IMG/VR virus record: IMGVR_UViG_3300047443_000169
Location: 1 to 23,510 of that record
Origin: a virus
Reading direction: 5' to 3' (one strand)
Length of the DNA stretch: 23,510 nt
Positions 1,234-8,875 of this stretch are shown one piece after another (positions within the stretch are counted from its first letter, which is position 1; each line of letters starts with the position of its first letter). The position numbers were made by a program, and so were the translations under genes. Under the pieces are notes generated by a model, which saw only the letters and a list, made by a program, of their open reading frames with translations, made no database searches and was not told the origin of the DNA.

Positions 1234-2217
1234 ATGCCGAGCCGGTTCGAGTACGAGCGCGCGATCCGCAGCAGCGACCTGCCGTCGCTGTCGCGGCTGC
1301 TCGCGCTCACGATCGCCACCTGGGCGGACGTGCGGACCGGCATCATCCCCGACCGGCACCAGCCTTCCCTGACCGTGCTGGAGGAGACGACGGGGATGGT
1401 GAGGGCCTCGGTGCGGACCCATCTGACCAAGTTGGAGACCGGCGGTTGGCTCAAGCGTGACCGCCCTTCGGTGGCCGCCGCGCGGACGAAGAAGGCTCGG
1501 ACCCACTACAAGCTCCTGGTTCCGGTACCCGTCGAAGCAGACGATATGAGCCTGTTTGAGCTAGGGCAGGAGATGCCCCCCTCTAGGGCAGGAGATGCCC
1601 CAGAGGAAGCCGACCTAGGGCAGGAGATGCCCCAGCCTGGGGTAGGAGATGCCCCAGAGCTAGGGCAGGAGATGCCCCCCTCTAGGGCAGGAGATGCCCC
1701 CAGTAGTTCCTTGGGTCCCACGTCCGATGAAGTCCGTGGTCCTGCCGACGCTTCCGGTCCCGCAGCCCCGCCCACCCCCGGTGACACAGGAGACGCACCA
1801 GAGGACGAGGTCCTCGAAGGAGAGCCTGTCGACGACGCTGAGGCCGTCGACTCCGACGCCCCTGTCACCGCCCAGACGATCGTGGGCGAGTGGCTGGAGC
1901 GCTGCGCCAGTCGCCCGCCCTCGTCCGTCATCGGCCAGATGGCCAAGCAGATCCGCATCCTCCTCGATGAGGACGGCATCCACCCGGACCACATCCGGCG
2001 CGGCATCGCGCACTGGATGACCCGCGACCTCCACCCCTCGACGCTCCCGAGCCTCGTCAACAGCGCCATGAACGCCCAGGCCACGCCCGGCGCCCGTACG
2101 CCGGGCCCACAGCCCGCGAACTCCCTCTACGACCAGGCCACCGGCACGACCGTCTTCGACCGCGCTCGCGCCCGTGCCGCCGCCCGCACCGCCGCCCAGG
2201 AAGGACAAGGCCAGTGA
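1234..2217 (+). CDS. Phage replication initiator, winged-helix, with iterons in its gene
   Basis: Residues 1-95 match the actinophage helix-turn-helix protein family that starts with FEYERAIRSSDLPSLSRLLAL and contains a second-helix pattern T-x-R-A-S-V-R-T-H-L-T-K-L-E, followed by GGWLKR, as in a winged helix. Residues 110-156 are a low-complexity linker encoded by six DNA repeats (see 1561-1700) and read alternately as LGQEMP and SRAGDAP. Residues 160-215 are acidic and Pro-rich. Residues 217-285 form a compact helical C-terminal domain (IVGEWLERCASRPP through SLVNSAMN) that may bind the helicase loader. The product is 327 aa, and its stop overlaps the GTG of the next gene. Its closest functional model is the lambda O protein, which binds iterons inside its own gene; the role here is inferred from that layout. 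Confidence 0.75.
   Translation: MPSRFEYERAIRSSDLPSLSRLLALTIATWADVRTGIIPDRHQPSLTVLEETTGMVRASVRTHLTKLETGGWLKRDRPSVAAARTKKARTHYKLLVPVPVEADDMSLFELGQEMPPSRAGDAPEEADLGQEMPQPGVGDAPELGQEMPPSRAGDAPSSSLGPTSDEVRGPADASGPAAPPTPGDTGDAPEDEVLEGEPVDDAEAVDSDAPVTAQTIVGEWLERCASRPPSSVIGQMAKQIRILLDEDGIHPDHIRRGIAHWMTRDLHPSTLPSLVNSAMNAQATPGARTPGPQPANSLYDQATGTTVFDRARARAAARTAAQEGQGQ
1561..1700 (+). repeat. Six 19-bp iterons, probable replication origin
   Basis: The unit CTAGGGCAGGAGATGCCCC occurs at 1561-1579, 1583-1601, 1615-1633, 1660-1678 and 1682-1700, all exact. A sixth copy with two mismatches (A to G, C to T) is at 1637-1655. Start-to-start spacing is 22, 32, 22, 23 and 22 bases, so copies sit on about the same face of the helix in three close pairs. 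Each unit has an internal dyad, GGGCA then five bases then TGCCC. Copies fall in two reading frames of the initiator gene, so selection appears to act on the DNA rather than on the peptide. By analogy with iterons in lambda O this is a good origin candidate; an autoregulatory operator is the main alternative. Confidence 0.75.
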
Positions 2218-3945: not shown

Positions 3946-4449
3946 TTGCTGCCCACCCTCACCGGAGTCGGCCGCCTCACCGCCGACCCCGAACTCCGCT
4001 TCACCCCGTCCGGCAAGGCCGTCGCGAACGTGTCGCTCGCCTTCAACTCCCGCCGCCTCAACCCCCAGACCCAGCAGTGGGAGGACGGCGACACCTTCTT
4101 CATCCGCGGCTCCGTCTGGGAACGCCTCGCCGAGAACGCCACCGAGACCCTCGCCAAGGGCATGGAGGTCCTCGTCACCGGCGAAATCCGAACCGAGTCG
4201 TGGGAGAAGGACGGCCAAAAGCACGAGCGACCGGCACTCCTCATCCGCTCCATCGCCCCGAACCTCGCATTCGCCGTCGCGCAGGTCTCCAAGGACTCCG
4301 CGAGCCAACAGAACGGCGGACAGCGCCCCGCACAGAACCAGCAGCGCCCCCAAGGCCAGGCGCAGCGATCCCGCCCCACCAGCCCGCCCGCCGACGACCC
4401 CTGGGCCGTCGACCAGGCCAACGGCTACTCGGCCGAACCACCCTTCTGA
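3946..4449 (+). CDS. ssb: Single-stranded DNA-binding protein
   Basis: SSB coats single-stranded DNA during replication and recombination. Residues 1-112 form the OB fold, recognisable from GVGRLTADPELRFTPSGKAVANVSLA, a mid-domain DTFFIRGSVWERLAENA, and KGMEVLVTGEIRTESWE. Residues 115-160 are a Gln/Pro-rich disordered linker, and the protein ends in SAEPPF, a variant of the bacterial DDDIPF tip that recruits partner proteins. The start is TTG at 3946; AAGGGGAA lies about 7 bases upstream and the family's usual N-terminus fits there. Length (167 aa) is normal. It is the best-identified replication gene in the early operon. Confidence 0.93.
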   Translation: MLPTLTGVGRLTADPELRFTPSGKAVANVSLAFNSRRLNPQTQQWEDGDTFFIRGSVWERLAENATETLAKGMEVLVTGEIRTESWEKDGQKHERPALLIRSIAPNLAFAVAQVSKDSASQQNGGQRPAQNQQRPQGQAQRSRPTSPPADDPWAVDQANGYSAEPPF

Positions 4450-7987: not shown

Positions 7988-8875
7988 ATGGCTGAGCTGC
8001 ACCCTAGTGCGCCCATCCGCCCCAGCACCATCCACCCGCGTGCCGTAATCGCCTTGGCCATCACCGCCGCGGTCCTGATCTTTCTCCTCACCGGCGTCTC
8101 CCTCTGGCTCTCCTACGAGCACCTTCACGACGTCGGCGCCCGCCACGGATTCCACGGCGACCCGATCCGCGCCTGGGCCTGGCCCGCCACCCTCGATCTG
8201 TTCTACGCCGCGGGCGAGGTCCTCATCCTGCGCGCCGCCCTCGCCCGCCGCGTCGACTGGTGGGCCATCGCCCTGGTCGTCTTCGGCGCCGGCGGATCCA
8301 TCGCCCTCAACATTGCCGGGGTCGGCCCGAACGCCGAGCCGCTGGACTACGTGGTCGCAGCCGTCCCGCCCGTCGCCTCCCTCCTGGCGTTCGGCGCGCT
8401 GATGAACCAGCTCTACCGCCTGCTCCGCGAGCCCACTGTGACGGCCGACGTGACGCCCGTCAGTGACGACCAGAAGCCGGAGCAGCAGCCGATGACGGCG
8501 CCCGTCATCCCGGCCGCACCCGTCCAGGCGCCCGCGGTCCCGGCCACACCCGTGCCGCGTGCGATCCCGGCCGCCACGCGCCAGCCGGTCGTCCCCACGG
8601 GGGCACATCTGCTGCCGATCGTCGCCCGGCCGCCCATCGCCCAGGCCCCCGCGCCGATCCAGTACAGCGACCCCCGCTGTGCCGTGATCCGGCCGCTGTA
8701 CGACACGGCCCCGCCGACCCGGCCCGGGACGAAGGCGATGCGCGACGCCCTGGTCGACGCCGGGTACGTCGCCCCGTCCGACGGGATCATCCGCGGCACC
8801 CTGCGCGCCGAGGTCGAGGCGCACGAGCCGCACCTCGCGCACCTGCCGCCCGCGCCCGTCGCCATCGGCGCGTAG
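7988..8875 (+). CDS. DUF2637 (SpdA-like) four-helix membrane protein
   Basis: The N-terminal half is a DUF2637 domain: four transmembrane helices at about residues 20-41, 62-84, 91-110 and 121-142, with the conserved-looking DVGARHGF between helices 1 and 2 and the RAWAWPATLDLFYAAGE signature. Residues 148-220 are a Pro/Ala/Val-rich linker, and residues 235-280 look like a short winged-helix or helical domain (TKAMRDALVDAGYVAPSDGIIR). DUF2637 proteins are known from Streptomyces conjugative plasmids and integrative elements, where neighbours act in plasmid spread, and from actinophages. No TraB-type translocase is present here. The product is 295 aa and leads a membrane gene cluster. Its role in a phage is unknown. 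Confidence 0.8.
   Translation: MAELHPSAPIRPSTIHPRAVIALAITAAVLIFLLTGVSLWLSYEHLHDVGARHGFHGDPIRAWAWPATLDLFYAAGEVLILRAALARRVDWWAIALVVFGAGGSIALNIAGVGPNAEPLDYVVAAVPPVASLLAFGALMNQLYRLLREPTVTADVTPVSDDQKPEQQPMTAPVIPAAPVQAPAVPATPVPRAIPAATRQPVVPTGAHLLPIVARPPIAQAPAPIQYSDPRCAVIRPLYDTAPPTRPGTKAMRDALVDAGYVAPSDGIIRGTLRAEVEAHEPHLAHLPPAPVAIGA

Follow-up and report, generated by a model that had tools for sequence, protein, structure and literature searches.

An iteron array inside the replication initiator gene of a virus contig close to a Streptomyces prophage-like region: a probable in-gene origin

The initiator gene, its iterons and their surroundings

The window, that is, the whole stretch of 23,510 nucleotides analysed here, is IMG/VR record IMGVR_UViG_3300047443_000169, a 23.5-kb virus contig that closely resembles a prophage-like region in Streptomyces caniscabiei (L130). 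It contains a replication initiator gene that is preceded by WhiB-like and HNH genes and followed by a gene overlapping it by 4 bp, and then by genes for zinc-finger proteins, a single-strand DNA-binding protein (SSB), an exonuclease and head proteins. The features are as follows.

1234–2217, + strand: replication initiator gene, 327 aa (matches to phrog_8064 and phrog_391)
1234–1527, + strand: N-terminal winged-helix DNA-binding domain, HTH_36-like, aa 1–98 (AlphaFold2 pLDDT mostly 76–94)
1402–1440, + strand: codons of the predicted recognition helix, aa 57–69, RASVRTHLTKLET; helical in the model, covarying with the inner half-site triplet
1531–1857, + strand: disordered linker, aa 100–208, hosting the iterons and the AT-rich stretch (pLDDT mostly <50)
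1561–1579, + strand: iteron 1, frame 1 (LGQEMP)
1583–1601, + strand: iteron 2, frame 2 (SRAGDAP)
1615–1633, + strand: iteron 3, frame 1
1637–1655, + strand: iteron 4, frame 2, two mismatches, CTGGGGTAGGAGATGCCCC
1660–1678, + strand: iteron 5, frame 1
1682–1700, + strand: iteron 6, frame 2
1701–1740, + strand: candidate unwinding element, beginning CAGTAGTTCC; GC 0.57 compared with 0.69 locally
1870–2076, + strand: helical C-terminal domain, aa 213–281, from the model; common to Thermobifida and Arthrobacter phage proteins with other N-termini
2214–2906, + strand: G39P-like helicase loader with a C-terminal phage zinc-finger domain (fold match 1NO1; PF24623)
3946–4449, + strand: single-strand DNA-binding protein, in the same early region (PF00436, E = 2.9e-24)

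The encoded protein matches phrog_8064 (replication initiation protein; E = 3e-33) and the O-like family phrog_391 (E about 2e-8; 1.6e-8), the latter also with the DNA-binding domain alone (E = 2.8e-6). HTH_36 (PF13730) matches it weakly (E = 0.011; 15.9 bits against a family cut-off of 25), and the same family scores 31.8 bits with relative L128 (E = 1.2e-7) and 55.2 bits with the E. coli type described below. The lambda O family proper, Phage_rep_O (PF04492), gave no match to the window protein, whereas lambda O itself gave 5.7e-36. A fold search with the initiator model returned generic winged-helix matches only, none with E <0.001. Judging from the model, coding constraint is weak where the array and the low-GC stretch sit, namely in the disordered part of the protein.

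The top match of the model of the next gene product was 1NO1, SPP1 G39P (Foldseek probability 1.00, rmsd 1.6 over 65 columns, TMt 0.79, E = 0.34); the search against sequence families gave no match for it. Two further genes of the window deserve mention. The HNH endonuclease gene directly 5' of the initiator (621–1199) has an N-terminal part that reads as a small winged-helix domain fused to HNH. A DUF2637 protein (7988–8875) matches the PHROG 'excisionase' phrog_733 (E = 2.6e-65), a label that deserves checking because DUF2637 is found in plasmid-type genes of Streptomyces as well.

When up to three mismatches are allowed, the unit CTAGGGCAGGAGATGCCCC starts at 1561, 1583, 1615, 1637, 1660 and 1682, giving six matches on one strand where 0.02 are expected, a number that none of the shuffled sequences reached. 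This recount agrees with the first-pass annotation on the five exact copies and the one with two mismatches (that at 1637), on their spacing of 22, 32, 22, 23 and 22 bp, and on their position inside the initiator gene in alternating frames, which arise because 22 + 32 = 54 is a multiple of three. The GGGCA/TGCCC dyad that had been noted in each unit is present and can be refined to GGGCA-N5-TGCCC, with outer CTA..TAG bases that are partly degenerate in the window; across the Streptomyces family, the full half-site is 8 bp long, CTAGGGCA, around a 5-bp centre. The arrangement as three close pairs does not hold as a general rule, since relatives space their units 33/57/33/23/24 or 17/25/23/22 and still retain the dyads and the reading frame. 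L130 and L122 have two extra units each, consistent at the sequence level with insertion of one 54-bp module. The units, being dyads with 5–8 bp arms, set the array apart from the iteron-plasmid class with monomeric initiators and non-palindromic iterons.

No further copies of the CTAGGGCAGGAGATGCCCC type occur elsewhere in the 23.5-kb record, and scans for sigma-70 promoters and terminators near the array found nothing. A dyad scan of four whole relative contigs, with up to three mismatches in the 16 arm positions, detected the array only; therefore, these contigs have no separate operator and no second array. These results bear on the suggestion that the array may equally be an autoregulatory operator, at which the initiator blocks its own transcription or caps its own level while the origin lies elsewhere. 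Site and protein clearly co-evolve, as described below, and binding within the gene could serve as a roadblock. However, the upstream side of the gene is free of copies, as are the surroundings of any promoter, which makes regulation the less likely main function; moreover, an operator would not need 4–8 dyads spread over 120–200 bp with the lowest-GC stretch and a helicase loader gene behind them. We regard this alternative as quite unlikely.

The AT-rich stretch to the right of the array is modest in the window itself (57% GC) and reaches 0.42–0.50 GC over the same 40 bp in six relatives. In all eight family members compared, these 40 bp fall within the lowest 0.1–4% of local GC, and in several no local stretch is lower; the corresponding value for lambda is 0.7%. 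Tandem AGTAGTTCC/AAGAGTTCC 9-mers directly follow the array in several relatives (L124, L126 and L068), at the place of 1701–1720 in the window, and may be repeats through which the unwinding element is contacted as single strands. Cumulative GC skew, in which the first-pass annotation had proposed to look for a change near 1.6 kb, was computed for the window and four relative contigs; the curves are monotonic and confounded by transcription, carry no origin signal and are uninformative.

Constraint on the array DNA and joint changes of helix and half-site

Six sequences (the window, L018, L113, L124, L125 and L068) were compared codon by codon. Within the array, the third bases of four-fold degenerate codons are identical in all 252 comparisons (100%), whereas in the DNA-binding domain only 49.6% of 819 are; amino-acid agreement runs the other way, at 62% in the array versus 79% in the domain, with 81% nucleotide agreement in the array. 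The codons that are rarest across 20 window genes (CTA, TCT, AGG, GCA, GGA and GAT) are also found in the array, and its GC3 is 0.62 versus 0.91. This comparison of related initiators indicates that selection acts on the array DNA and not on the peptide, as the first-pass annotation had proposed from the two reading frames; thus, what is found is the opposite of the case it had named against itself, in which relatives keep the peptide repeat but not the DNA unit.

The same figures bear on a peptide repeat with a role at the protein level, the DNA similarity being a by-product of recent duplication. LGQEMP/RAGDAP repeats are indeed present in the peptide, and the array length shifts in 54-bp modules in L130 and L122. 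Such a repeat is already contradicted, however, by four-fold sites that are invariant between relatives; moreover, the unit occurs in two reading frames, the model predicts disorder for the peptide stretch, and in L127 and L128 the peptide becomes LGAEN/RGTQP with the dyads kept. We give this alternative next to no weight.

With nothing but the DNA-binding domain as query, IMG/VR yielded 20 viral loci, half of them (10 of 20) new to the analysis. All 20 have a dyad array, beginning about 290–350 bases from the start codon, just past the DNA-binding domain. The half-site is CTAGG+NNN around a 5-bp centre, NNN being GCA, GGC, TCA or TCG, plus one GTC outlier, and, as read from these loci, the triplet follows the recognition helix of the encoded protein. 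GCA is found with helices such as VRASVRTHL, GGC with DRSTVRRHL (L127 and L128), TCA with SKGAFLTHR or SKGTLLTHR (L209 and L208, respectively), and TCG with SKSAFLNHR and similar helices (L207, L210–L212, L214 and L216). L213 deviates, with the helix SKPTVKRHL and GTGGGGTC.

Two comparisons show the change in whole arrays. With the helix altered from VRASVRTHL to DRSTVRRHL, the units of L127 and L128 are CTAGGGGC-N5-GCCCC; they retain the window spacing of 22, 32, 22, 23 and 22 bp, and the dyad is altered in essentially all of them, the first unit being degenerate. L209 (SKG, TCA) and L210/L211 (SKS, TCG) have a common spacing of 33, 57, 33, 23 and 24 bp and DNA-binding domains that are 83–85% identical, yet both arms differ in six of six units. 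In a tree computed with the helix columns left out, TCA has arisen or been retained twice, at separate positions that both have glycine as residue 58; two independent pairs in agreement (n = 2) are too few for statistics. Helix and all site copies thus appear to have changed together in relatives, so that helix–site pairs can be matched from sequence alone, and the re-specified arrays support a tie between the site and the recognition helix of the initiator.

The centre of the units speaks to a possible role in RNA, in which GGGCA-GGAGA-TGCCC hairpins in the initiator mRNA bind proteins or ribosomes and control translation. The dyad could fold into short hairpins with a GGA loop. In L208, however, the 5-bp centre is reversed (GCTCC), a finding in favour of a symmetric DNA site rather than an RNA loop, and in L209 it is mixed; such changes would break a loop motif and not a DNA dyad. 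Since, in addition, unit changes go hand in hand with changes in the helix by which the encoded protein reads DNA, and a low-GC stretch adjoins the array, a role in RNA seems very unlikely.

A partition or incompatibility (centromere-like) site, bound by the initiator or another protein in a plasmid-like prophage state, would also involve repeated DNA: iteron arrays have such roles in plasmids, and some actinophages have parS repeats near repA (PMC7157519). Here, however, the arrays lie inside the initiator gene and covary with it, relatives occur in chromosomal contigs of Streptomyces (L130), and those neighbouring genes that were inspected serve replication, all of which make a partition site highly improbable.

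Domain exchange and occurrence among HTH_36-type initiators

The C-terminal domain of the window type is joined to other N-termini in Arthrobacter phage Laroye gp88, Thermobifida phage P1312 and the Streptomyces loci L132 and L133. The arrays of Laroye (GGCCCG-N4-CGGGCC) and L133 (GTCCGG-N5-CCGGAC) differ from that of the window, as expected if the array belongs with the N-terminus. Conversely, the E. coli-type N-terminus is joined to several C-termini, one of which resembles that of mEp043/epsilon34, whose N-termini differ. The gene that follows the initiator varies as well: in L123, L125 and L128, which carry another C-terminal domain, it encodes an IstB/DnaC-like ATPase; it looks IstB/DnaC-like by reading in L126 and L127 too, and in L207–L212, L214 and L216 it is, by inspection, the start of a DnaB-like helicase. 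On these sequences, the type of the next gene changes together with the C-terminal domain, which is exchanged between initiators and is predicted to contact the loader; the DNA-binding domain moves with its iterons as one unit, and the C-terminal domain with the loader as another.

At the same linker position, Arthrobacter phage Kharcho (L175:1801–1924) has five 24-bp in-frame repeats (ETGATEAP) with a CCCCGG-N3-CCGGAG dyad; these are near-identical, and therefore recent expansion and a peptide repeat are indistinguishable there.

The pair pattern GGGCANNANNTGCCC, run over the 2.9 million viral contigs of IMG/VR, matched 37 stretches, and the reversed control pattern none. Of the stretches that are intact, nearly every one falls directly behind the DNA-binding domain in a winged-helix initiator gene; those of L143 and L144 are cut by contig ends. 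An exception is L161 (3825–3861), with a GGGCAGCAGGTGCCC pair at 22-bp spacing outside any winged-helix initiator gene. A scan of 393 Streptomyces genomes for the exact pair found one prophage only; therefore, few sequenced species have the GGGCA form in its exact version.

The core dyad recurs in other hosts. In the E. coli-type group, which occurs in E. coli chromosomes (most of the query is present in 95 of 5,426 genomes), strain W224N carries three perfect GGGCA-N5-TGCCC units; in Salmonella phage SI5 there are two, each with a single mismatch (GGGCA-N5-TGACC). The cyanophage-like contigs L137 and L147 have GGGCA-N5-TGCCC inside the gene, and the nearest annotated relatives of one pattern group are Prochlorococcus phages. 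Phages picked by protein similarity alone have the cores GTGCA (SfV and AsXd-1) and CGGCA (Pseudomonas PP9W2). Orf39 of Shigella phage SfV (L182:901–1719) and Aeromonas phage AsXd-1 (L181) each contain five unannotated GTGCA-N5-TTCAC dyads, spaced 24, 21, 21 and 24 bp, and these in-gene arrays are likely to be the origins of those phages. Array annotation for such HTH_36 O-like initiators is absent from the database records examined. A dyad detector found no array in Vibrio D65, Serratia, Sphingopyxis, phi2 and MED4-184, negatives that prove nothing because it picks up even the lambda iterons weakly.

The DNA-binding domain of the window is 20–24% identical to those of the other groups (E. coli-type reference comparison), 20% in the case of the E. 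coli type, for which the other groups give 19–46%; a mixed alignment of the domain was too diverse for a collection scan. All groups share the PS ... V pattern of the helix-turn-helix. Shared ancestry of the recognition helix would be the simplest reason for the common core, which could also have arisen by convergence. It is quite possible, although we stop short of calling it probable, that HTH_36-type initiators across bacterial phyla follow one scheme, with a GCA-type core dyad around a 5-bp centre, inner half-site bases read by recognition-helix residues at about 56–58, and arrays re-specified in step with the helix. If this is true, the sequence of the protein could serve to predict that of its origin.

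The proposed origin and its known counterparts

The array is very probably the iteron part of an in-gene theta origin of the lambda O/SPP1 gp38 type, bound by the product of its own gene. By analogy with those systems, a dimer of the N-terminal winged helix would bind each GGGCA-N5-TGCCC dyad, and six bound dimers on closely spaced sites would build an O-some-like complex that bends the DNA and opens the AT-rich stretch to the right (about 1701–1740). The C-terminal domain would then recruit the G39P-like loader encoded by the overlapping next gene, and the loader would deliver the replicative helicase. The sequence evidence covers the array, the DNA-level constraint, the helix–site covariation, the low-GC flank and the loader gene, and from these we infer dimer binding, opening, loading and origin activity. 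The origin reading of the first-pass annotation is thereby strengthened by the initiator-family matches, the loader next door, the AT-rich flank and the re-specified arrays in relatives.

The Streptomyces arrays are ready candidates for actinophage origins. As the gene itself contains the site, the protein and its site move as a pair, and between close relatives the helix differs at one or a few residues and the site in every copy, so that an old question, how an initiator and its multi-copy origin can shift specificity jointly without losing replication, becomes testable with natural sequences. The core shared by E. coli, Salmonella, cyanophage-like and Streptomyces elements also provides a simple pattern for annotating unmarked origins. 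Our searches of the open-access literature turned up neither this iteron nor an in-gene origin from an actinophage.

The in-gene origin as a type has been known since lambda, and the layout is therefore not undescribed, as had been thought possible; it is the same in lambda, SPP1, P22 and L. In lambda ori in gene O, and in the Stx phages P27 and 933W, dyad iterons lie in the initiator gene between the DNA-binding and C-terminal parts, as in the window, and lambda ori further resembles it in a spacing of about 20–24 bp, an AT-rich stretch on the right and a loader gene next to it (PMC5043065, PMC7466680); the Stx phages also have six iterons. In contrast, lambda has a Phage_rep_O domain (PF04492), the iteron ATCCCTCAAAACGAGGGA and loader P, whereas the window has an HTH_36-like domain, GGGCA-N5-TGCCC, a GC-rich host and a G39P-like loader. 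SPP1 oriL, in gene 38 (gp38, gp39 = G39P, gp40), likewise lies within a gene with a G39P-fold loader encoded adjacent to it (PMC6316719), but SPP1 has a second origin, oriR, whereas the four Streptomyces relatives have a single array. Taken together, the array, the low-GC flank, the loader gene and the lack of a second array give the layout known from lambda ori and SPP1 oriL. In the Salmonella phages P22 and L (gene 18), distantly related initiators each appear to bind different repeats in their own gene (PMC8022706); the phage L repeats, TGTCCAACGGA in six copies, differ from those of the window, and helix-by-site covariation as in the Streptomyces family is not described there. What is new in comparison with these systems is a large Streptomyces family, an HTH_36 class whose one core dyad is common to hosts from different phyla, as its presence in prophages of E. 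coli and Salmonella and in cyanophage-like contigs shows, and the natural re-specification of whole arrays.
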